The position numbers were made by a program, and so were the translations under genes. The notes under the pieces are model-generated. The model worked only from the letters and a program-made list of their open reading frames with translations, had not been told where the DNA came from and made no database searches. A DNA stretch of 64,000 bases from Polytrichum commune (Eukaryota; Streptophyta; Polytrichopsida; Polytrichales; Polytrichaceae): contig OX485806.1 in NCBI GenBank assembly GCA_950295325.1, forward strand, positions 45,009,169 through 45,073,168, given 5' to 3'. Of the stretch, positions 3,061 to 16,704 are shown in pieces (position 1 is the first letter of the stretch; each line of letters starts with the position of its first letter).

Positions 3061-4706
3061 CTAGAGTTTTTCTACGAGCTTCTGCATTGTTTGCTGCATG
3101 CTCAAAAGTAATGCCATTTTCATATCGTCGCTTGACTTCATTCCTTGCATTAGGCTTATACTGCTATCTTTTATCTCACCAATACAACGCTCTAAAAAAA
3201 TTTCTTCCTTACGCTTTGGCTCGGGGGATTTGGATGTGCTTTCCCCGCTACGAATCTCCGATGTGTTTGGGTCGGATGTCTCACCACCCTTAGGCCCATC
3301 CGGATTCACGGCGCTTGCATGCGCATGCGACACCACGTTGGCCCTGTCATACATAAACTCATCGACAAGCTGGTACCAACGACACTTCTCCAATCGTTGT
3401 GACCCCGACTTCGCATTCATCGCCTTATCCTCCTTATAGTCGTTGTAGATTGCAGCCCACTTCTTGCGGCAAGCTTCGCTATCCTTCGTGAAGTCAGGAC
3501 ACATGGAAACGAGCTTGGTGTGCAATCGCGACCAATTGTCCACACCTGCACGCCCACACAAACCCAATGCTCATATGTCTTTGGCCCATTGCCATCGGAT
3601 TGTCCGTATGTACGAAACATACACAAACATCTATGAAATGAATGCAAAGCATCCCCGTACACATGAACAGTACCTGACATTAGAATGATAGAAGTAAACC
3701 ATCATAATCCTAAACCCAGCCCTCACCCCTTCCCAAAAAAATTCAAAAATTCAAAAAAAAAAAACCAGGAACTGGTTCACAGTCTGCTATGCAGACAGAA
3801 TTCCAGAGCACACTGTGTACCAGAGCAGAAAAACAGTCAATGATGGAGAAGCAGCAGTCGAGAGCAGACTGCCTGATCTCGGCAGTCTGCAGCCAGAACT
3901 CTATAAAAATTTCCAGCAGCCTAAACGCTGTTGCCCTGCAATGTGGAACATAAGCAGCAGACTGTGAGGCCTCTGTGCTGCTCACAAGTGAGGCTGCAGA
4001 CAGCATAATCCCATTTTCTGAATACCCGAGGCTACTGACAGGAGGAAAATTCGGAATTGGACAGCAAAATCCCATCGTCTGGAAAAAAAAACCCCGGAGC
4101 ATTTGCTGGCACGACAATTTGCAATCCCCCGGGGATGTGGCACAGGGCAATTGGCAAAAAGAAAGAATGAGAGCATTATTATGTGTACACAAAACCAAAA
4201 AAAAGTTTTTGAGGGAGAAAAATACCTTGCTTTGGCGGGGCACCGAATGTCTTTTGCATTTCACCTCGAATGGTGATGAGCTGTATGACCCAGTGGTCCT
4301 TCCACGGGCCTACATTCTTCAATGTCTCGACCTCCTCTTTCGCATCATCCAATTCAACGACATCGATTTTTTTCATCGGACCTCTCCGTTTCTTGGCCGG
4401 TTTGGGTTGGTCGGTCAAGCAATCTTGAGGGCCACGTTTCTGCGACCCCTCCGTGAGGTCAATGGTCATGGGAGGACTGCCTTGGACTGCCGGCGGGAAA
4501 CCCAAGCCATGCACATGCGGCATGAACGAATGCAGAAACATGAAGGGCATTTGATTTTGTGGACCTCCGAATCCTTGGAAAAATGGAGGCGGAGGCATGA
4601 CGGGGAGCTATGAACGGAATTCGGCAGGAATTGGCGGTGGTGTGGAACCTGTCGCACCATTCTGCATGGATCCTGTGACATTGGGCATTGTCCCCTGGGA
4701 GTCCAT
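3061..4706 (-). pseudogene. Myb/SANT (trihelix-like) DNA-binding partner of the Harbinger transposase, one in-frame stop
   Basis: There are two exons. Exon 1 runs from ATG 4706 (MDSQGTMPN) or ATG 4598 (MPPPPFFQG) to a donor after 4226 (GCAAG/GTATTT). Exon 2 runs from 3545 (acceptor TGCAG) to the stop at 3061. The join gives GAPPKQ-GVDNWSRLH and completes a Myb/SANT-like trihelix: GPWKDHWVIQLI, then NWSRLHTKLVSMC, then CRKKWAAIYNDYKED. A KKRR-type basic motif lies before the domain and a hydrophobic helix (MALLLSMQQTMQKLV) at the C-terminus. PIF/Harbinger elements usually encode such a second protein, which helps the transposase bind DNA and enter the nucleus. The in-frame TAG at 4608-4610 separates the two possible starts. 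The gene is broken only if the upstream ATG is the real one. Confidence 0.8.
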
Positions 4707-5365
4707 CGTGGGCACCGGGAAAAAACCAAAAACACCAAAAGGGAAAACCACAAACATGTGGATGGAGGGTGGAGGGATGGAAAACAACACCAAAAAAATA
4801 TATATATGCAAAAAAAACCTCAAAAAAAAAAAAAACCAACAAATTGTCACAGATGCTGGAGAGTGTTCACGCCAAACACAAATGGTGTGGCTTCTGTTCC
4901 GAGGGAGGAGTGTGTGCGGCCAGGGAGGGCTTGCAGGCGTCGTGATTTCGCCAATTTTGGGCCAGGCAACCTCAATGCGCGCACAGCAGGCTAGCGAATT
5001 CGGTGTCCAAATCACCGCAGGAGGCTGGATGTTTGCAGAAGAGGGTGGAGGAGAGGAGGAGTGCAGCGGAGGGAAAGTGTGCCGGGGGGAGTGCCGAGGA
5101 AGAGTGCCGCGCAGGTCGCGAGGTCGGAGCAGCAGCATCTTCGACAGCTGATGGTGGAATGCCGAAATGGTGGACCCCGTGCTGATGTGGCCCGGCAGGC
5201 TCGCACTACCAGAGGGTTTCCCCTGGTAGTTTGCCACTGCCGCTCCCCGTTGCCACGTTGGATTGCCGCCTTGCTGCCTGCCACCACTGTGGTAGGTGGC
5301 AGGTGAGCTCGGCCAATGGCGGGCAGGAGTACGGCCTGCCTGCCGCCCATATGGTAGTGGCCTAA
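4707..5365. other. 3' flank of the Harbinger region, no gene seen
   Basis: No protein with recognisable similarity. It contains A-rich tracts at 4720-4850 and a GC-rich part from 4900. A short perfect hairpin lies at 5206-5231 (arms ACTACCAG and CTGGTAGT). The right end of the Harbinger element may lie here, but I could not place it. Confidence 0.35.
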
Positions 5366-5517
5366 ATCTCCATGGGTGAGAGGCGTTCTCAACGCTCGGG
5401 GCCCTCACCCACACTAAGAGAACTTGGGCCCTCTCACCAATGGCGCCACAAGTCCCGGGTGTCACTCCGGGGTCCCCCTTATGCCCATGGTGTTGCGGAC
5501 ACTCCTCATGGAGAGGT
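5366..5517 (-). repeat. Fragment of the TGTCGCG-type LTR
   Basis: About 150 bp closely match the right part of the LTRs at 349-1286 and 54036-55007, including the shared GTCACTCCGGGGTCCCCCTT block and TGGAGAGGTG near the end. Similarity stops on both sides, and the final GCGCGACA is not conserved. This is a truncated or rearranged LTR piece beside the end of the gene at 5554-7088. Confidence 0.75.
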
Positions 5518-5553
5518 GGGCAATACTGTTGCAGCAAATGAGACGAAGCTTAC

Positions 5554-7088
5554 CCTTTAGCTCCAACACTGACTTTGTGGTGGTGGACTTCATGTCGATG
5601 GAGGAAAATTTGTCCACCATCACATCGCAAAATGTCTACAACAAAAAACAAATGTGTCAGTGTTGCACTAAAATACGAACGCACGTTCGTGAAATGGAAA
5701 CTTCAAGAAAAAAAAAAAATTCAGGAAATTTTATAAGCTCAAGAAAATTGCAATGCAGAGTGACCTTTACGAACGTTCGTTCGTAAACTTACCTTCCACT
5801 GCGGAGACTGGGTCTTCGCGTTCTCTCTCTCCTTTGGCGGGCACCCATGTGCCACCCAGACATCTCTTGCAACCACTATGTTTGCTGCCCACGACGCCTC
5901 AAACGTCTTTATCTTATTACCGGAATTCAAAAAAATTGAAATCTTTCGGAGCTTGTCCCAGTCGTCCGACCACACCAGGAAGGCCTTCCAGTAGCGCAGG
6001 TCCGCCTTCAGCTCGTGCTGGAAGTTATCGCCCTTCAAGATGATTTGCGACGCCCCCAGGCTGTGTTGTCCATCTATGATCTAGAACTCACCATTCTGGA
6101 TCCGGGCCCAATCTTTTCCAGTCAGACGGGATGTGAGGCCCTTCGGCATCACGCAGACGGTCTGCATGTCCCACTTGACGTTGTTCATCAAATTATTAAT
6201 TTGCCACTTCACACCCCTGCTCTCACAAGACCTAACCATCCACTTGTTTGGCGATTTCTCGCACTTGAAGCAGTCTACGTTGAATGTAAAGTGCCTTCCA
6301 ATGGGCCAGCAATCCTTTGAATAATTGTTGAAGTGTCTCAGGATTCTGGTAGCCTTCATGGCGTTCGGGTTTTCTCCCTTCTTCAAAGGGGTTGGCATTA
6401 CGGGAGGCGAGCTCACCTCCGCCATCTCTGTTACTCCCGACTTCTCCATGTCATCCCTTGACCTTTTCGACGGCGTGGATTGTTTGTTGGGCCCCTCCGT
6501 CAGCCTGCTCGCGGATGGCACAGGCCGGGGTGCACTTCTCGAACCTCCTGCACCGGATGCAGACGGTTTTCTTGGACTCTTCTTCTTCTTATTGGCCATT
6601 GCGACCACACTGTTGTACTTGGAGATGTTCAATGCCAAGGCTGTTAGCTTCCTCGTTGTTCAGTATTGGCTCAAAGCAAACTTTGTGAAGAGACCCTGCA
6701 GGTCGAAATGCTTGGCATGTTCTCCTATAGTCAGAATGGCGTAATTGTGGGAGAAGGACTTTTCCAGGTAGTGCAACAGAAGGTTGATGTGATCCTTTTT
6801 GTTTCTCATGTCCAAAATGACGTAATTTCCTTGGGCCTCTATTGACTCTATTTCCCATGTCTTTATCTGGACCCATTGTTCTGGTTGGTCCGCTCTCGTC
6901 TCTAGCTCGTAGGTGAAGCGAAGGACAAAGAGACCGTCTTCGGTTTTCTCTAGGAGCGCCGTCCACTCCCCCATGAAGTCGTCCTGTGGGACGTAATTGT
7001 CATTGCCATTTGTGTCCGACACTGACTGTGGCAGGCTGTCCACCTGCACCGCGAACATCTCAATGGCACTCCTGGTTGATCTAGCCAT
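5554..7088 (-). pseudogene. DGQHS-motif protein (ParB/sulfiredoxin-like core), broken by two stops
   Basis: From ATG 7088 one frame runs 432 codons to a good donor after 5793 (TGGAAG/GTAAGT), with in-frame stops only at 6660-6662 (TGA) and 6081-6083 (TAG). A 157-bp intron holding two palindromes leads to exon 2 at 5635-5554 (acceptor TTGTTGTAG, next donor GTAAGC). Later exons are not visible; an LTR fragment and Harbinger element lie beyond. The N-terminal ~140 residues contain GEWTALLEKT and NYVILDMRNKKDH. A lysine-rich linker (MANKKKKSPRKP) follows, then a conserved part with WMVRSCESRG, IIDGQHSLGAS just after the second stop, and LRKISIFLNSGN. IIDGQHS resembles the DGQHR/ParB/sulfiredoxin motif (family knowledge). 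The function is unknown; nuclease, NTP-binding or DNA-binding roles are only suggestions. Confidence 0.6.
5675..5787. repeat. Two palindromes inside the intron of the DGQHS gene
   Basis: The copy at 5766-5787 is perfect (arms TTTACGAACG and CGTTCGTAAA, centre TT). It begins within the donor GTAAGT of the minus-strand intron. The second, at 5675-5690, keeps arms ACGAACG and CGTTCGT with centre CA. Both belong to the family found at 7120-7586 and 11299-12573. Confidence 0.9.
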
Positions 7089-7119
7089 CTACACAATGAC
7101 ATACACTTTTAGTAAAGTA

Positions 7120-7586
7120 TTTACGAACGTTCGTGAATGAGTGATATCATCAGGCCACAGGCACTACTGTTTGCATTGTGGGTTTGGTTGTATAACATAA
7201 CATTGATTCATATATTTGATCTAGAAGCTTTTGATCATATTTACGAACAATCGTTCGTAAATAGGTGTTTTGATCGGTTAAATTTACATTTCACACTCTC
7301 ACGAACGTGCGTTCGTAAGATTGGGTATTTTGTTCTAATTATTTCATAGTGATGGTGTTTTTATAACTGTGACAGTATGGTGGTGTATAGGTTGGTATTT
7401 TCCAGTGTATTTTACGAACGCGCACTCGTAAAGTTTTGGATTTGTGCTTTGGATTTAGGGTATTTACGAACACACGTTCGTAAACTCCTTCACTTGTGCT
7501 TTGGGTACGGGTATTTACAAACAAGCGTTCGTAAAAAAGGACTGGGTCAGGCGATGTATTCGCATTTACGAACGATCGTTCATAAA
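7120..7586. repeat. Palindrome array A, upstream of the DGQHS gene
   Basis: Seven copies, starting 32 bp upstream of the ATG at 7088: 7120-7137 (central 4 bp missing), 7240-7261 (centre AT), 7301-7316 (TG), 7411-7432 (CG), 7463-7484 (CA), 7514-7535 (AG) and 7565-7586 (AT). The consensus has arms TTTACGAACG and CGTTCGTAAA around a variable dinucleotide. The last four are spaced 52, 51 and 51 bp, and two of their spacers are alike (TTGTGCTTTGG), so this part is a tandem repeat. Other flanks are unrelated. Confidence 0.9.
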
Positions 7587-7695
7587 TGTGGCTGGTTTGG
7601 TTATTTTCTCACATATTGTCCGTACATATACGTATTCATATATATACGAATAGGTATATGGTGGACTATGATTCTTCCTTTGAAGAATGCTTGCA

Positions 7696-8281
7696 CACGG
7701 GTAGATCACTCTAAGGCATTTTTGTGCACCACGTGCGGCTGGGGTTTTTTTGTTTTGGGGCTATTTACCTTCAAGGGCTGAATTAAAGCCTCCCTATAAT
7801 TACTTAAATTTCAAAAATGGCCCATTTGTTTGCACCCTTCCATTACTTATATTGTCCAAGTCACTGTAATTTTTTGTACTCTATATTCCTTTTAAGTAAT
7901 AAAAGCTAATTTACTTCCTAACGCACAAGTGTTGAAGGAAAGTATGGAAACAAAGAAGGGTGCAAACAGTAATATCATTGCAAACTTAGTTATGAAGAAA
8001 ACACATAGGAGACCATAGCAAAGTAATACCATTGCAAACACTATTATGATGAAAACACATAGGATCCTTCTAGGATCCTTATCTTCAGCCCCTATATTAA
8101 TTTTACAAAAAATAATGGCCCACGTTTTATGTCCATCTAACTTACTTATAATGGGATTGTCTACATTTAATGGCCCCTTCATTATTTGGAATTCCTTTAT
8201 AATTTTTATTTCAAATGATTTTAATCCTCTCTATATTATGCTGCACGTCGTTTTTTAAATGCACTAAGTGATCTACCCGTG
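7696..8281. mobile_element. Non-autonomous hAT-like transposon (family 1, copy 1)
   Basis: The ends are inverted copies of CACGGGTAGATCACT. The flanking 8 bp TGCTTGCA is repeated exactly at 7688-7695 and 8282-8289. Eight-bp duplications and CA-rich ends fit the hAT superfamily. The 586-bp interior has no coding capacity and differs from copies at 19478-19888 and 39159-39566, which share only the ends. A short internal direct repeat (GAAAACACATAGGA) occurs near 7996 and 8051. It sits just beyond palindrome array A. Confidence 0.9.
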
Positions 8282-8289
8282 TGCTTGCA

Positions 8290-8989
8290 AGTGCTTAGTC
8301 AGAACGATTGAATTGAACAAAAAATAAAATCAAAACAGAATTGAGCTTCAGAATGATTATTAAAGCTTAGATTGCATGCAAAACCTGCCAAAACTCATGA
8401 TTCAAACAAAACAAATGGAAATCAACAATGAACCAATTCAGGATGTGGGTTGTGAGTGTAGAAGGACTGTTGTACTCACATTGAAGTGTTCAACAGCAAA
8501 AATTGTTCTTCCCTTGCTGAAAAAACCACACAACAACACACAAATCTACAATGCCTGTTGTTGAGATGTGCCCTTGTACCACTCACTCCTTCACACTTTC
8601 AAACCCTAGCACCTATTTTGGTGCAGCTACAAGCTTCAAGCTTCAAGCTTTCAAACCCCAATATTCAAACTCTAGCTCTACTAACAATCTTGCAACCCTC
8701 AAGCTCTCTACTCACAATAAGTCACCTCTCAAGCGAAATATGCAACTCAAACACATTTTGAAGCAAAATAAAATAAGGCAGACTAAAATTTGACAGAGCT
8801 TCGCTCCGAATATTCTAAGCTCTCATCTCCTCCTCTCTCTGTTCCAAATGAGAATGAGGAGAAGAGAGAAGGGACGCGGGGTGGTAGCCGACGCCGTTAG
8901 GGTTTCCCCACGACTGCCACGTGGCGTCGTGCCAATGGCTACGGTCCATTGCCGTCGTTCCAATGGCGACTTTCCACGTGGCCTGTGGG
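8290..8989. other. No gene recognised
   Basis: AT-rich sequence with a short CAAGCTT-rich direct repeat near 8630-8660 and a G-box-like CCACGTGG near 8915-8980. Short ORFs here look like chance. Confidence 0.3.
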
Positions 8990-9180
8990 GGGATGGGGGG
9001 ATGAGTGCATATGGGTGATAGGTGGAGATGGGTGATGGGGGATGGGGAAATGGGGGAAATGGGAGGACATGGGATGGGGAGATGGGGTAAATGGGTGGAC
9101 ATGGGTGATGGGGGGATGGGGGGATGGGGGAAATGGGAGGAGATAGGATGGGGGGAAATGCGATCGGAGATGGATGTACA
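8990..9180 (+). repeat. G-rich minisatellite
   Basis: Irregular repeats of GGGATGGGG, GGGGGAAATGGGAGG and ATGGGTG cover about 190 bp, with many runs of four or more G on the plus strand. The proline-rich minus-strand ORFs here are a product of the repeat. Confidence 0.8.
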
Positions 9181-9371
9181 TATAATGAAGGGGGGCGTAA
9201 ATCATATGTATATGTATATGTATAATATGTAATGGGAGCATTTATCACATTAACTTGAAGAACTTAGTATGAAGACATGAATTTTGTGTGCCGTATGTCC
9301 TTAGTACATTTACAATTGGATTCCTTGTAAATATATTTTCAAAAACAACCTTAACTTAATTTGTATTGCAC

Positions 9372-9890
9372 AATGTATGTCATTTAGTGGGTTTTCGATG
9401 AAGAATCCACCCCCAAGGATATGTATATGGTGTTCTGCAGTATAGAGTTTTCATGAATGAGATAACTTTAAGGTTGAACTATGGTTCTTCAAATATATAT
9501 TACATAGTACATAAAGGACCCAATTTGAGATTGTTGAGAGGGGCTATTCATTTTCTTACAAGAGGTGGAGGAAAATTCAATCTCCAATAGGATGTCAATT
9601 CATTTAATTGGGCGTCAACTTGAACAAAAAAATGTATAGTGCATTGAACTTTAATTTTCAACAATGATGTAATTGCATTTAACCAATGAGCCATATGGAC
9701 AGATATCTCGCTAGCATCAAATGTATGTCATAGGTTTTCAATGAAGAATACACCCCTAAGGATGTGTATATGATGTTTTCAAATATAAAGTTTTCGTAAA
9801 CAAGATATCTCTCAATTTGGACCATGGTTTTTCAAATAAATGTTACATTCATAAAAGACCAATTTGAGATTGTGTAGAGGGGCTACCATC
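9372..9890 (+). repeat. Diverged direct duplication, about 175-bp units
   Basis: Units at 9372-9548 and 9718-9889 share, in order, GTATGTCAT, GAAGAAT.CACCCC.AAGGAT, GTATATG.TGTT, GAGTTTTC-like and CAATTTGAGATTGT, ending in GAGGGGCTA. About 170 bp of unrelated sequence lies between. No coding signal. Confidence 0.7.
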
Positions 9891-9975
9891 AACTGTGAGC
9901 TTGTCATAAATTAAGTTAGTGCGATACGGGTTTTAAGGAGTCAATATTGTTTGTGTGTGTAATATATTGTACTAC

Positions 9976-10051
9976 CAACCAAACCCTAAACCCTAAACCA
10001 CGTACACAACTATCACAAACCTTAAACCCTTACCCTAAACCCTAAACCCTG
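9976..10051 (+). repeat. Interstitial telomere-like repeats
   Basis: Several CCCTAAA units occur in two short groups (9978-10000 and 10018-10051) with variants such as CCTTAAA. This is the plant-type telomere repeat. The tract is short and imperfect, so it is not a chromosome end. Confidence 0.75.
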
Positions 10052-11298
10052 CATCCCTACATCTTTTTATCCTACCAACCTTTCTCAATATATGTGGTCT
10101 ATGGGCATGTCAAAATGAACTACCGATGTTGGTTGGATTGGAAATTGCTTTATTCAGTTCCCAATAACTATAATAATTGATAATCATGCCAATTGTCATT
10201 TTGAGATTCAAAATTAATAGATTTCGGGGAAAGCTTTGGTTCGGGTGAAAAGTGAGTGTTGAAATGGTCCATCTTTCCCCTTAATACTGTTGAGTGCTAT
10301 TTGATCACACAATCCAAACTTAATCTCATTATAACATGCATGTCTTAAGACTTTTGTTTAAATCAACACTTTTATCTATGAGCATGCACAAACTTCTCGT
10401 AGGATGTAAAACACAGAATTTTAAGTGTGACTTGTCGTAAGTATGGTTTCATTTCTTATAATTAATCTATCATATTAACCATTCCAAATTAATTAAACAC
10501 TTTCACACATGCTATTTTAATTCATTATTTTCATACTTAGGGTTACATTTGAATTAAGTCCTAACTTGCATCTAGGTATGATTAGATTAATATTATCCTC
10601 AATCTACCCTATGTACAAGCCATTATGGATTAACCCATCTTTTTAATGGTTTTCACGCATTTGTGAGCATATTACGGGCATGTTTCGATGTGAATCATAT
10701 GATCATCCCTATAATTTTAGGGGCCTCCACAACATGCTTTTACCCAAGTTTACCTTATTGTGTGTGTGTGTGTGTGTACACACACAATCACATACATTCA
10801 TAACATATATTAGGTCTCCATTGTCAATTAACTTGGACTTCACACCTTGGTTGCAAATAATTTAATATTCTATATTGACCAGCATCATATTCTGATATTA
10901 TGTATCTATTATATACATATTTATATCCATGAGACCTTGGTAACACCTAAGGTTTGTGACCAATTTACATATTTTCAATATCAAGTTGCGTGCATACAAT
11001 ACATGTTCCTTACATAATGCTATTTATATAATTGCGCATGGATGGAATGCCATACTGGTAGGTCAAAGTAGGCGGTGGAAATCCGTTTTTTAAAGAACAT
11101 CCAAGGATTTTTGAACCACCGTAGAGAAATACTTAAAGTTCTTCCCCCCACCGCAAAGCTCTTTTCTGCGGCACACACCGTGTGTGCTCTAGGGACCCGA
11201 CAGAGCGCGCGGAAGCCATTTTTGTGTGCGCCAACCCCACACCTCCCAAGTACACGACAACATGCACACCCCGCATATATCGTTGTAAATACCAGAAG
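10052..11298. other. No gene recognised; short GT/AC microsatellite
   Basis: AT-rich sequence without coding signal. A (GT)n tract followed by (AC)n at 10760-10787 can fold on itself. Confidence 0.4.
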
Positions 11299-12573
11299 TT
11301 TACGAACGCGCGTTCGTAAAGCACACGATCTCGCACTTATATATAAATGGGTCAGAGAAATGATGGTGGATAGTTTATGAATGCATGTTTGTAAGTACCA
11401 TATAAGAGCATAGTCTGCGTTCAGAGAGCCATATATATATACAGATATATATGGGTAGTCATATGCACTGTATGCATATTGATAGTCATAGGCACTATGC
11501 ATATGGATAGTCATATTCATAGTACATATGTCACTGATATACGAACGTGCGTTCGTAAATATGCCAACCAACATCATAAAAATATATGTATGTTATTCGA
11601 CCATTCTTCCTTTTTCTCCAAATGCATATAGGATGGACGGGAATTTACGAACGTGCGTTCGTAAAGACCACATGGGATTATTGTCCACGCATGCAACAAC
11701 ATCATTCATTGACGTCTATGCAGACTTTCAATATGGCAGTTATATGCGAACGGACGTTCGTCTTTCCCACACGGCCATTTCAACCGTATACTCTTAGATT
11801 CTCCAAATTTCCGAACGTGCGTTCGTAAATACCACCTGGGAGTATGACCGCCGCATCCAACAATATACTTATAGACAAACACATTCCTGTATATAACCAC
11901 ACAGTAGGGCAAAGAACTTACATACGCACGTTCGTAAATATGTCGTTCCCTGATTCACAATGGAACGTCGGGATGTGGTACAACCTGTCATTTGCCCCGA
12001 TAGACAGGGTGGCATGTCTTCAGATAACGTAAGGCCCGAGTTATCAAAATTGCGACGGGTCTAAGTGTTTTTTACATATACTATTTTAGCAAGAGCTTAC
12101 GAACGGCCGTTCGTATACATAACCGCCGCAAACATATGTGGGGGGTGTACACACTACCGTTTATATTTCCCATCTGGGACTCTTTTTATCTTTACGGTGA
12201 TCGACATGCATATTGTAGTGTGCAGACGACTATTATGTCTTCCACCCATATCATTCGGGAGGTTCCTATAGTTATGTTTATTGCATGCGGACAAGGTCGT
12301 AAATATGAGTATTGGGTGCTCCTCAAAATTGCGTATTCCATTTTCCATGCACATTTCATCATTAATTGGGTTGAGTTTTTTGTCCGCGCGTTCGTCTACA
12401 ATTGTGAGTAACGTGTCATTTGTTGGTGTGCAACCCTTGCCATGGTTGCACAAATCATATCGACATCCTTCACGAATGATATATATCTCAATGTGATGTC
12501 GGTGTCAATTGCCATGGGATTCCCCTGCAGTGTTTCCATGTCTTTGTATTCTTTTCGAACGTGCGTTCGTCTT
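11299..12573. repeat. Palindrome array B, upstream of the DUF7869-like gene
   Basis: Copies of the same palindrome as array A: 11299-11320 (perfect, centre CG), 11374-11395 (decayed, centre CA), 11538-11559 (TG), 11644-11665 (perfect, TG), 11743-11764 (GA), 11808-11829 (TG), 11917-11938 (CA, left arm altered), 12096-12117 (GC), 12389-12395 (right half only) and 12552-12573 (TG). The last full copy ends 120 bp before the ATG at 12693. Spacing is irregular (65-290 bp) and the spacers are unrelated, so this is not one tandem repeat. Small ATGGATAGTCAT repeats occur at 11450-11520. Confidence 0.9.
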
Positions 12574-12692
12574 TGTATGTGAGGGCCTCCCATTGGTGCC
12601 CCAAGAGTTGTTTGTGAGTTCTGGGCCATATATTTAGACAGATAATTTGTGCGCTCTTTTAAACATTGCGATGGTTGTTGTTTGTTCATGTG

Positions 12693-15600
12693 ATGGTTGT
12701 TTGTTTAGCTACAATGGTGATGCATGTGGGAGATATTTCATTGGCGTTGTCGACTAATGCATCGTCCCCTGATAGTGAATGCGAACTATCTTTCACGTCG
12801 GTGGACGATACTGACGTTACAAACGTGGTGGGGGTGCCTGTGGATGCATCCTCCCATGAGTCTTTTGAAGGACCCGAACAATCTCTACATTCCGAGGATG
12901 ACCACGATGACATTCCGTTGTGCGCAAATTTCGGAAGAGAGCAATGGGTGGGCCTTGATGTCGTTCTACTTTACGACCTTGGTGTCCCGGTGGCAAATGG
13001 CAGTAGAAACTCCAATCCCCGTGATTGTGTTGATGCCAACCCCCTCGGTGCCGATGATGTTGGTGTGTGCATCTTAAATTCTTTGCTTCCACTTGAGGTT
13101 CCGGCGACCTGGAGATTTTCCTTTCGTCGATGGTCCCTTCGTCAAGTTCTACATGAAGAAGTAAGCTTGTGGGATCATGGGCGGCGGCACAAACAAACGC
13201 AATCAACTTTGTTGGCCAAATTACCTCCTTGCAAAGGCCTCCGCATATATGATTATAACCGCGTGCCTCGCGGTGATAAGGAGCAACGACGGGATCGCAT
13301 ATTGGGAAATGATTCTATCCGTCTCGTCCGCCAAGGACTGTTGCGCAAGGAAATGTTGCCAATTCTTAGCACGCAAAAAAATTAGGTCTCTTCGTCAAGA
13401 GATGTGGTTTGCGGATTTTCGTATGAGATTTGCAAAGAAACTCGAGGCCCACAGAAATTTGCACATTGATACCCATGGCCATAAGGTGGTGACCCTTGAG
13501 AATGTGAAAGTGTGTTGTACAGCGTGGTATATCATCCATGTTGTCTCCAAGGCTGACTTTTATAGGTTTAGGAAGTATTCATTGATGGGTCGACGCTCTC
13601 GATTTCATGGCAACTCGGGCACAAAGAAACCTAGGGAGGCTACACTTCAAGCCTCTGCGACACTCTCCACCATCATAGTGCCATTGGCCGATGCAATGCC
13701 CCACAAGACGAGGACATTGTCATCAGGGGAGAAAGTTGTTCAAATGGTGTTGCCCACGGGCACAAAATGAAAGAACATATTAACGGACATCAACGAAGTG
13801 GGTCGCATAGCGGGATGTGGGCCCATTTTTTTGTCCAAATTGGATGTGATTAAAAACCAACAGTTTGCGGAATACATTTTAAAAAGACCCGGGGACAAGT
13901 TCGTCAGGTGTACGACGTGTGAAAAATACAAAGGTCTTCGAGACGCCCACCCCATAGGCACAAAATCTCATACCAGACACTAGACAAAATATATTGAGCA
14001 TGTCAACAACCAAAAGGCACACCGTCAAGATTACTACAAGAATCGTGCTCTATCCATAATGAGGCCCACAGAGGTTCTAACAGTCATCCTTGATAAAATG
14101 GACCACGCCAAGACCGCATGCCCTTGTTATGCACGCAAAATAAAGGCCACAGATGGTCTCTTCAAGTTGTCTGTAGCTGTCACAGGTTTGTATGAAATCA
14201 CAATTAGGTGTTGAAAGTCTATTCAATTTTCTTGGATGTGTTTGGCAAATGTCCAACTCCATACATCCGTTTAGTGGTTATTTCATATTTTTGTTCACGC
14301 ATCGTTTTTTTTCTTCCAGAAATGATTACCCACGGCCATGGGGACGTTAAATATGCCCATTATGATCTAGATTTTTACCCTAGGGATACTAACCACACGG
14401 TGGGTTCATTTGCAAAACTCTTGCGCGATCTTAAAAAGCCACCGGTACATTCTTCCCGTGCACTTTTTGATGGTTGTGGAACGACACCCCTTTATGAGGC
14501 AGTGCTTGCGGGGAAGGAGGTTTGTATGTCGTCATTGCCGGAACCACTCAGAAAACCCATTTGTGCAAAACCATTGCCTCCAACTCTCCACATTCAACTT
14601 GATAATTGTGCAAATGACAACAAATGTCGATACGTATTTTATTTTTGGTCATTGCTCGTGGCGAAAGGAATCTTCAAAGAGGTGTTTGTGTCTTTCTTGA
14701 TGGTGGGGCACACACACGACGACATTGATGCATCATTTGGACGTTGGAGCATGAAGTTGCATGAGGAAGATTTTCCGACCATACCACTTCTTATGAAATC
14801 ATATATGGATTTAGACCATATGCCGGCGATCCCGCACATGATTGACGAAGTATCAAATTTCAAGGCCTTCATCAAGCCATACATGTTGAAAGGAAGGGAC
14901 CGTTTGGTGGGACATACCAAAGCACAACAATTTCGATTCTATATGAGGGATGTTGGTGTCTCGGACATGCAGTTCAAGCTTTTGTGCACATTTCCTAATT
15001 GGGGCTCAGATGATGGTATACTCGTATGGCGTCAAGACAAGGATGGGAAATGTTTGCTCCCGGATGGGGAACCAAAGCCTTGCAAACCCGACCCATTGAG
15101 GAATGGGCCGGAAATCATCAAAGGCATATCCGGATTCATTGAGTATTGGAAAGAATTGTGCGAGGAGGACATCACCATACGTGTTAGAAATACCCATGAA
15201 CCGTTGATTACGTATTGGGATCGCATTCGCTCGGCTTTGATGACACTTGGTGGCGACACCTGTACGACTTTGACACAAGAATTTTGGCCACAAAATTGTT
15301 TGACGGTTGTCGAGTCCGACCTCATATTTTTCAACAATGGAGACATCCGTGAAGAGTTCGCAATGGACGAGCATTACGTTAGCCCGGCGCGCAATCGGCC
15401 GACATCATCGTTTTGTGTAGGTGTTGATTCCACGAAGGTTATATGGTCCTCGTACGAGTAGGAGATGAGGAGCACCCCAAGCCAATTTGGTTGGTGAAAG
15501 TATTGTCTTCACCCAATTTTGTTCGAACTAGCCCCAACTTTCGTCAAATTGAGGTGGAATATTATCGTCCAAGCACCAAAGACCCAAACGTGCTTCGCAC

Positions 15601-15838
15601 CTATTTAGGTTGGGACACCAAAAAGAGTTTCAAGTGGACAGTGGACTCAACTTACGGACCGGTTTGGATAAACATGGATACCATACTTTGTGCTTGGAAG
15701 CCACGCAGGGGTTTTAAATCAGAAACAATGACCATCCCCCAAAAACATATAGATTTTACCAAAGACAACTTGGCACGTATTGCAGGTGCGGAAAACGACA
15801 CCGAGAATGGATATGAAGCGGAAGATGGAGATGGGTAA
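12693..15838 (+). pseudogene. DUF7869-like protein (RNase H-like, possibly transposase-related), broken
   Basis: The first ATG is at 12693. The frame changes near 13335, just before the Cys cluster CCARKCC. It continues with stops at 13768-13770 (TGA) and 13981-13983 (TAG), and splices across 14186-14319 (CACAG/GTTTGT..TTCTTCCAG) in correct phase. It shifts again near 15440 and ends at 15838. In order: an acidic N-terminus; the Cys cluster; RCTTCEKY with following His residues (possible zinc site, ~13905); HVNNQKAHRQDYYKNRA; then HIQLDNCANDNK (~14600) and FLMVGHTHDDIDASFGRW (~14695). The last two motifs are signatures of DUF7869-type proteins, which are multicopy in many eukaryotes (recalled, not searched). 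Conserved Asp/His suggest an RNase H-like, DDE-type core (inference). The C-terminal part contains PIWLVKVLS and may be a reader-type domain. Array B lies immediately upstream. Confidence 0.65.
14186..14319 (+). other. Intron of the DUF7869-like gene
   Basis: The donor GTTTGT follows CACAG. The acceptor TTCTTCCAG is preceded by a T-rich tract. Removing 134 bp joins the two frames as V-T-E-M-I-T-H. Confidence 0.7.
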
Positions 15839-16704
15839 ACATAACGTAGGTGGGAGTTAATGGCAAAAAACATGGGCGCATGCTTATTATTGGTTTTTAA
15901 TAGACATACTAGACTTGCCACATTCAATTGTGGCATACGTTTGGGATGTGCCATCCAATTCCATAAGACCCCTAGATATGAGATGCGCACCCCATAGATA
16001 TGAGATGACATATTTCATTTGTTTTTGAAATTCGATTGTTATTTTCTACATGAAGTTAATGTTTTCATTATAATTCAATGACTTTCTATTTTTAGTACTG
16101 TGAATATTCTTCACGTGCGAATTTGTAAATCGTCATGTTTCTAATGTTCCGTATGCTCACAATATTGGCATCCCAAACTATGGGCATATTTTATTTTGAG
16201 ACTTTCCAAAGTCTCCGATTAACGAATATAGTGTTAATAGCGGACGGAATGAAATTAGGGTTTTTTTTTTATCAAAGAGCCACTCAACATCGAGGAATTT
16301 ACTACGAACAAGAATTTTTTAGTTAGACATGAATGATTATCATTTGTCATACGTGATTGACTTCCTAGTGCACACTTAAATATCATCATCCTATTGTGAA
16401 CTCTAAGATTTTGGTCATCAACACAAGCATTTTTTAATACCAAATAATATTTAATCAATAGTGCTCATATATTCTTCCAGGGGTTTATTCCTTATTCTTC
16501 TTCTTTCCATTACCGTGAAAAGACTATTGTAGGAGGATATTAAATATCTAAAAGTTAACAAAATGACAACAACAAATTGCTTGCACAAATTGCAGCATCG
16601 TGTATGTATGTTTGTATGTATGTACATGGTTTCATAGAAACAAAAAACAAAGATGTTAACCATGGACAACAAAGATGCAAAACCCACAAGGAGTATATAA
16701 GTAG
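15839..16704. other. 3' flank, no gene seen
   Basis: AT-rich. CACGTGCGAATTTGTAAAT at 16113-16131 could be a decayed palindrome copy, but too weak to count. Short ORFs have no recognisable similarity. Confidence 0.35.

Follow-up and report, generated by a model that had tools for sequence, protein, structure and literature searches.

In CACTA/Spm transposons the subterminal repeats are bound by TnpA, and in the ParB-parS system the sites are palindromic and clustered. Excerpts of the published accounts describe anti-silencing by VANC in the VANDAL transposons of Arabidopsis, which are Mutator-like (PMC5735166; PMC10398659), with a VANC motif, YAGTATTAY, that is non-palindromic and lies in a single orientation, and with DUF1985 in the VANC protein (PMC5735166). 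The DGQHR/DUF262 proteins, which have the ParB/Srx fold, include DndB and GmrS in the excerpted account of that group (PMC4619093). Here we analyse a stretch of 64,000 nucleotides from the moss Polytrichum commune (assembly GCA_950295325.1, contig OX485806.1, positions 45,009,169 to 45,073,168; hereafter the window), in which copies of a 22-bp palindrome lie beside the relics of two genes, one for a protein with the domain DUF7869 and one for a protein with a [DN]GQH motif (the DGQH protein). The palindromes belong to a DNA transposon and not to host genes, and from sequence comparison we think it rather likely that they are recognition sites through which a transposon-encoded protein would mark its own copies.

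As in CACTA/Spm, a large plant DNA transposon here holds many copies of a short motif, to which an element protein would bind; the sites differ from the CACTA/Spm repeats in being 22-bp palindromes and in lying internally, no closer than 2.4 kb to an end of the element copy E1 described below. Their clustering and palindromic form are shared with parS. With VANC, as excerpted (PMC5735166), the moss element shares short element-specific motifs that stand densely in non-coding DNA, upstream regions and introns included, and differ from one related family to another, as well as a second element protein that is less conserved than the transposase. It is unlike the VANC system of the same excerpts in its palindromic sites, in being a DUF7869-type transposon with a 4-bp target-site duplication (TSD), and in that no DUF1985, the domain of VANC homology, was found by Pfam in the DGQH frames of its four lineages F1, F2, F3 and F4. 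By analogy, we think that the moss system works like VANC without being VANC, and it is possibly an independent VANC counterpart with palindromic sites. A literature search found no account of this element or of DUF7869, which does not prove their absence from print.

Palindrome arrays and the transposon that carries them

The palindrome TTTACGAACG-NN-CGTTCGTAAA was matched 14 times in the window at up to three mismatches (5672-12117) and 0 times in 100 shuffles of the window. A looser search (up to five mismatches) returned 18 sites spanning 5672-12573, with the rest of the window free of them and with the 2-bp centres CA, TT, AT, TG, CG, AG, GA and GC. An earlier reading of the DNA (the sequence-only reading) had given about 18 copies and the same eight centres, and had confined them to two upstream regions and one intron; this was borne out, with nine and seven sites upstream and two in a putative intron. 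The arms of the 14 sites have a mean pairwise identity of 0.87, the spacer one of 0.27, and the two 20-bp flanks 0.28 and 0.27. The window array is therefore not a tandem repeat, and the arms are indeed conserved in unrelated flanks, as had been claimed. No recurring palindrome of such type was found in a motif-free palindrome search of four 10-kb window pieces outside the element.

Three dispersed copies of the element in lineage F1 (E1-E3) have sharp ends formed by 29-bp terminal inverted repeats (TIRs; AACACTATATTCG..., 26 of 29 bp identical between the ends), and all three are bordered by 4-bp target duplications (TCTT, ACCA and AAAG). E1 is 16,116 bp long; there is an insertion inside E2 and an internal deletion in E3. 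From left to right E1 comprises the left TIR, the DUF7869 gene on the minus strand, array A, a centre of about 3.4 kb, array B, the DGQH gene on the plus strand with three long open frames, a phosphatase frame and the right TIR. Its 29 sites (up to four mismatches) lie upstream of DUF7869 (for the frame used, the first M is at 7627) and of DGQH (ATG at 13001), in two putative introns with a pair each, and upstream of the phosphatase frame. The DUF7869 protein is probably the transposase. The sequence-only reading had tied the arrays to two divergent gene relics, and that tie stood, the genes proving to be the main pair of one high-copy DNA transposon; what it had taken for promoter regions is internal DNA of a mobile element and not host promoters.

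Its statement that there are no other copies held within the 64-kb window and failed genome-wide, where the exact F1 palindrome occurs at 2909 sites in the 408-Mb source genome, in equal count on both strands and with 0 matches for the reversed-pattern control. The first 100 matches listed fall into seven clusters, all on C1; three of these (L001-L003) align with the window copy and three more (L004, L030 and L031) with E1, and in the L002 cluster one site falls 1 kb outside the stretch fetched. The palindrome is spread genome-wide, as an objection raised beforehand had supposed; the other half of that objection, a lack of any link to these genes, did not hold for six of these seven clusters, which carry element sequence. 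The seventh, L032 (C1:2485595), is an array that does not match E1 at the nucleotide level. Both genes are likewise high-copy, with at least 150 scored matches each for DUF7869 and DGQH (of 1491 and 738 first-look candidates, respectively). Open frames of 511 amino acids with equal score are present on each of C1-C7, and 476 ends (222 + 254) fit the TIR pattern across the genome, with 0 in the control. The genome is that of a green plant, as shown by 19 matches to the RuBisCO small-subunit family on its large contigs, with chloroplast small subunits as the best PDB matches.

Two of these clusters have features of their own. L032 (C1:2485100-2486100) holds seven F1-type palindromes (up to four mismatches) 2.9 kb from a TIR at C1:2488450 and is perhaps another F1-type subfamily. 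L004 (C1:639500-647500) holds 44 palindromes at the same threshold, many at a spacing of 33-34 bp; a stretch of 396 bp is also duplicated there in inverted orientation (96%), at 1605-2000 and 6868-7263, and the copy is perhaps an array under expansion.

Related lineages with their own palindromes

We sampled 13 further DUF7869 loci and searched them for palindromes without a preset motif (8-bp arms, at least four copies). Arrays were found in eight of them (L014-L018, L025, L027 and L028). Together with the window and E1 they give four arm types, all of 10-2-10 geometry: TTTACGAACG in F1, TTTACGGACG in F3, CCCACGGGTG in F2 and GGGTGAGGCA in F4, in which the outermost arm base is weakly kept. 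The arms of F3 depart from those of F1 by one symmetric change per arm. Exact genome counts are 1147 for F3, 819 for F2 and 155 for F4, the latter two with 9-bp arms, and the reversed-pattern controls again gave 0. At up to one mismatch, seven of eight sequences hold their own palindrome only (E1 20, L004 35, L030 9, window 8, L028 5, F2 16 and F4 8 copies), and F3 holds 13 of its own type plus 2 of the F1 type.

Arm identity is 0.85-0.99 and flank identity 0.27-0.50 in eight of nine site sets. In the remaining set, L027, the array is tandem, with flanks at 0.76/0.58, and the left array of E1 has spacings of 85 and 92-94 bp, as might be left by neutral satellite debris from repeated tandem duplication. 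Against such an origin, the flanks in the window and E1 are at background with arms at 0.87-0.91, and the placement of the sites recurs in F1, F2 and F3. On the flank identities we rejected a satellite origin, already disfavoured, as most improbable, and the single eroded satellite that had been raised against the sequence-only reading was found neither in the window nor in E1.

In all four lineages a [DN]GQH partner gene lies across the centre from DUF7869, and in F1, F2 and F3 both genes have sites upstream, with further sites separating the DGQH frames; in F2 one site, 19824, lies inside a frame. F4 is represented by one complete element of 11.0 kb with its own TIR and the TSD TTCC; the single F3 end read has one base different from the F1 right TIR. 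Between F1 and F3, identity is 78-85% in DUF7869, 41-54% in DGQH frames 1 and 2 and 33% in the third frame. Between F1 and F2 it is 33-53% in DUF7869 and 23-26% in DGQH, and between F1 and F4 it is 34% in DUF7869 with no match in DGQH. On these identities, the gene product that diverges along with the sites is the DGQH protein. Lineage-specific palindromes would be expected if each element encodes a protein recognising its own DNA, and their standing as lineage-specific recognition sites of the transposon is well supported by the comparison of arms and genes. The dedicated dimeric protein that the sequence-only reading had proposed from the layout would fit these arrays as well, and the case for it is strengthened by lineage-specific arms of the same geometry.

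Each of the four lineages offers a natural candidate pair of protein and site within a single genome, and between F1 and F3, one base per half-site apart, self-recognition by a transposon would be directly testable. The elements also place DUF7869, a domain with no assigned function, in a context of element ends, target duplications and partner genes.

Proposed binding, binder and effect

Deviations from the consensus arms are seldom matched by a Watson-Crick compensating change in the opposite arm: 1 of 23 in the window, 1 of 26 in E1, 0 of 5 in F2, 0 of 1 in L027, 0 of 52 in F4 (L014), 1 of 69 in L025 and 2 of 21 in L030. Because compensation is rare, sequence appears to be kept and not pairing, which favours recognition by a protein over a hairpin. 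Hairpins or cruciforms, acting as a small-RNA source or in termination or recombination, would conserve pairing instead of sequence; perfect 10-bp inverted repeats suit them, as does the paired change that separates F1 from F3. Set against this, deviations within an element are mostly uncompensated and the sites of one element share one sequence, and we rejected a hairpin role, which we regard as very improbable, on the rarity of compensation.

From these patterns we infer binding, binder and effect alike. That the sites are bound by some element-encoded protein is quite probable; that this binder is the DGQH protein is somewhat less sure but still favoured, because, from one lineage to the next, DGQH changes far more quickly than DUF7869, and so do the sites. 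A dimer of the DGQH protein would bind the palindromes of its own lineage, many bound dimers would mark the element's own copies, and the promoters of bound copies would then stay active or escape silencing, or be autoregulated, in the manner of VANC. By that analogy, a role mainly in activation or anti-silencing is a tentative proposal that falls somewhat short of probable, and autoregulation is less likely again. If anti-silencing were true, the VANC strategy would have arisen a second time, independently and in a different type of transposon.

The sites might instead be bound for transposition, in a CACTA/TnpA-like way, by the DUF7869 protein as transposase or by a partner of the transposase. 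Arrays and DUF7869 occur together in eight of the 13 sampled loci and in E1 and E2, and the arrays flank a centre on both sides. However, the E1 sites (up to four mismatches) begin at 3858 and end at 13711 of 16116, leaving 3857 bp at the left end and 2405 bp at the right end free of them, so the sites are not subterminal; moreover, the TIR and most of DUF7869 are common to F1 and F3, whereas the palindrome is not. A subterminal role was rejected on site position, and we consider binding for transposition unlikely. Placement upstream of genes and in introns would also suit a host transcription factor, recruited by the sites to drive the element promoters. A single host factor would not be expected to account for a separate arm sequence in each of four lineages that share a genome and a site geometry, and we hold this reading to be decidedly unlikely.

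Several observations weigh against the favoured explanation. Compensated pairs are more frequent in F3 (9 of 36 deviating pairs) and L004 (5 of 30), and the E1 sites 16861 and 17237 lie inside an open frame. Searches of Pfam, NCBIfam and PDB gave nothing significant and no known DNA-binding domain in the DGQH protein, and DUF7869 itself could be the binder. The F4 array lies, as far as seen, between the DUF7869 and DGQH genes only, with no double placement, and the lineage comparison comprises four lineages with mostly one to three copies each. In five of the 13 sampled loci (L022, L023, L024, L026 and L029) no array was found in the 6 kb fetched for each; L024, L026 and L029 look truncated or rearranged, L022 and L023 not obviously so. 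L022 keeps open frames, and could be a lineage without the system or a domesticated gene.

The motif of the DGQH protein reads DGQHS in F1 and F3, NGQHT in F2 and DGQHV in F4, within a core [WHY]-I/V-I/V-[DN]GQH in F1-F3 and EPVDGQH in F4, with an arginine upstream and an N-containing stretch downstream. In our reading, the I/V-DGQ-H core, the upstream arginine and the downstream N-containing stretch come in the same order as in DGQHR/DUF262 proteins, and they recall the proteins of the excerpted account (PMC4619093). Unlike those proteins, the fifth motif residue is S, T or V and not R (no DGQHR or DGQQR pentapeptide was found, the motif arginine being absent in F1-F4), and there is no Pfam or NCBIfam profile match. 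We compared the protein by hhalign with DUF262 and DndB proteins from bacterial genomes, using trimmed alignments of five DGQH, seven of eight DUF262 and four of four DndB rows, with F1b, translated in a wrong frame, and L161, whose start-trimmed reading seemed to begin beyond the motif, left out. In these shallow alignments, with one-pair E-values, DGQH matched DndB at E = 0.0013 (probability 18%) over 38 columns upstream of the motif, with a reversed control of 0.82, and DUF262 at E = 0.044 (probability 1.2%) over 12 columns on the motif, with a reversed control of 0.12; DUF262 matched DndB at E = 0.00097 (probability 22%). The untrimmed comparison, with one row in the wrong frame, gave DndB at E = 0.17 at another place and DUF262 at E = 0.087 on the motif. 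A ParB/DGQHR-like fold of the DGQH protein is a motif-level lead and not a membership, the homology not being significant. Single-sequence AlphaFold models gave no usable fold (predicted local distance difference test, pLDDT, of 33 for the DGQH and 36 for the DUF7869 protein), and no relative of either protein was confirmed in IMG/VR.

Along this lead, a ParB/DGQHR-fold protein might load at the clustered 10-2-10 palindromes in a parS-like system, spread and coat the element DNA, and so keep it open or gather copies, with site and protein re-coded per lineage and no cross-reaction; we rate this as improbable, slightly more so than binding for transposition.

The relic in the window

The features of the window copy are collected in Table 1. 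By blastn, the relic is 81% identical to E1 at 5766-7093 and 88% at 12552-16237, with scattered blocks between, and there is no further match to E1 left of 5526 in the window or in the 7 kb beyond its left edge. Exon 1 of the DGQH relic is interrupted by two in-frame stops (TGA, residue 143; TAG, residue 336), and its IIDGQHS motif lies at about 6074. Between the window and E1, the ratio of nonsynonymous to synonymous divergence (dN/dS) is 0.08 in DGQH exon 1 (5766-7088; dS 1.16, near saturation) and 0.27 in the DUF7869 part (14208-15461; dS 0.215). On this ratio, DGQH exon 1 looks constrained. That the relic's halves differ in dS suggests that element lineages have exchanged modules.

Table 1 Features of the transposon relic, in window positions.
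Feature	Position	Strand	Basis
Truncated DUF7869/DGQH transposon relic, oriented by its DGQH gene; equals 4093-14527 of the joined E1 locus	5526-16235	-	blastn against E1
DGQH (DGQHS) gene relic: exon 1 (7088-5793), putative intron 1, start of exon 2	5526-7088	-	84% amino acid identity over 441 amino acids to E1
Palindrome pair inside putative intron 1 of DGQH	5672-5693, 5766-5787	+	pattern search
Array B, seven palindromes (six at up to three mismatches, one at five), upstream of the DGQH ATG (7088)	7120-7586	+	pattern search
Central stretch separating the arrays; blocks 75-89% identical to E1	7587-11298		blastn
Array A, nine palindromes (six at up to three mismatches, three at four or five), upstream of the DUF7869 gene	11299-12573	+	pattern search
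DUF7869 gene relic, broken open frames	12663-15838	+	PF25273, E = 7.5e-41 on 14208-15461; 87% amino acid identity to E1 over 374 and 135 amino acids
Terminal inverted repeat, sole remaining end; 28 of 29 letters as in the left end of E1-E3	16207-16235	-	sequence comparison

The donor of putative intron 1 directly abuts a palindrome, as GTAAG in the window (5788-5792) and GTGAG in E1 (L006:4297-4301); in F3 the corresponding donor lies about 18 bp from the palindrome. F1 and F3 elements both carry a NIF/FCP1-SCP-type phosphatase frame (L006:7918-8700 and L020:4510-5289), 61% identical over 258 amino acids, and the F1 frame, for which alone the profile match was computed, is of NIF/FCP1 type (PF03031, E = 3.2e-16 in E1). 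Phosphatases of this type are related to those of the RNA polymerase II carboxy-terminal domain, and the frame is possibly captured cargo. Past the break of the relic, in other repeated DNA, the window holds a 462-amino acid open frame at 1578-2966 with DDE_Tnp_4 (PF13359, 4.2e-30), which we take to be a Harbinger-like transposase.

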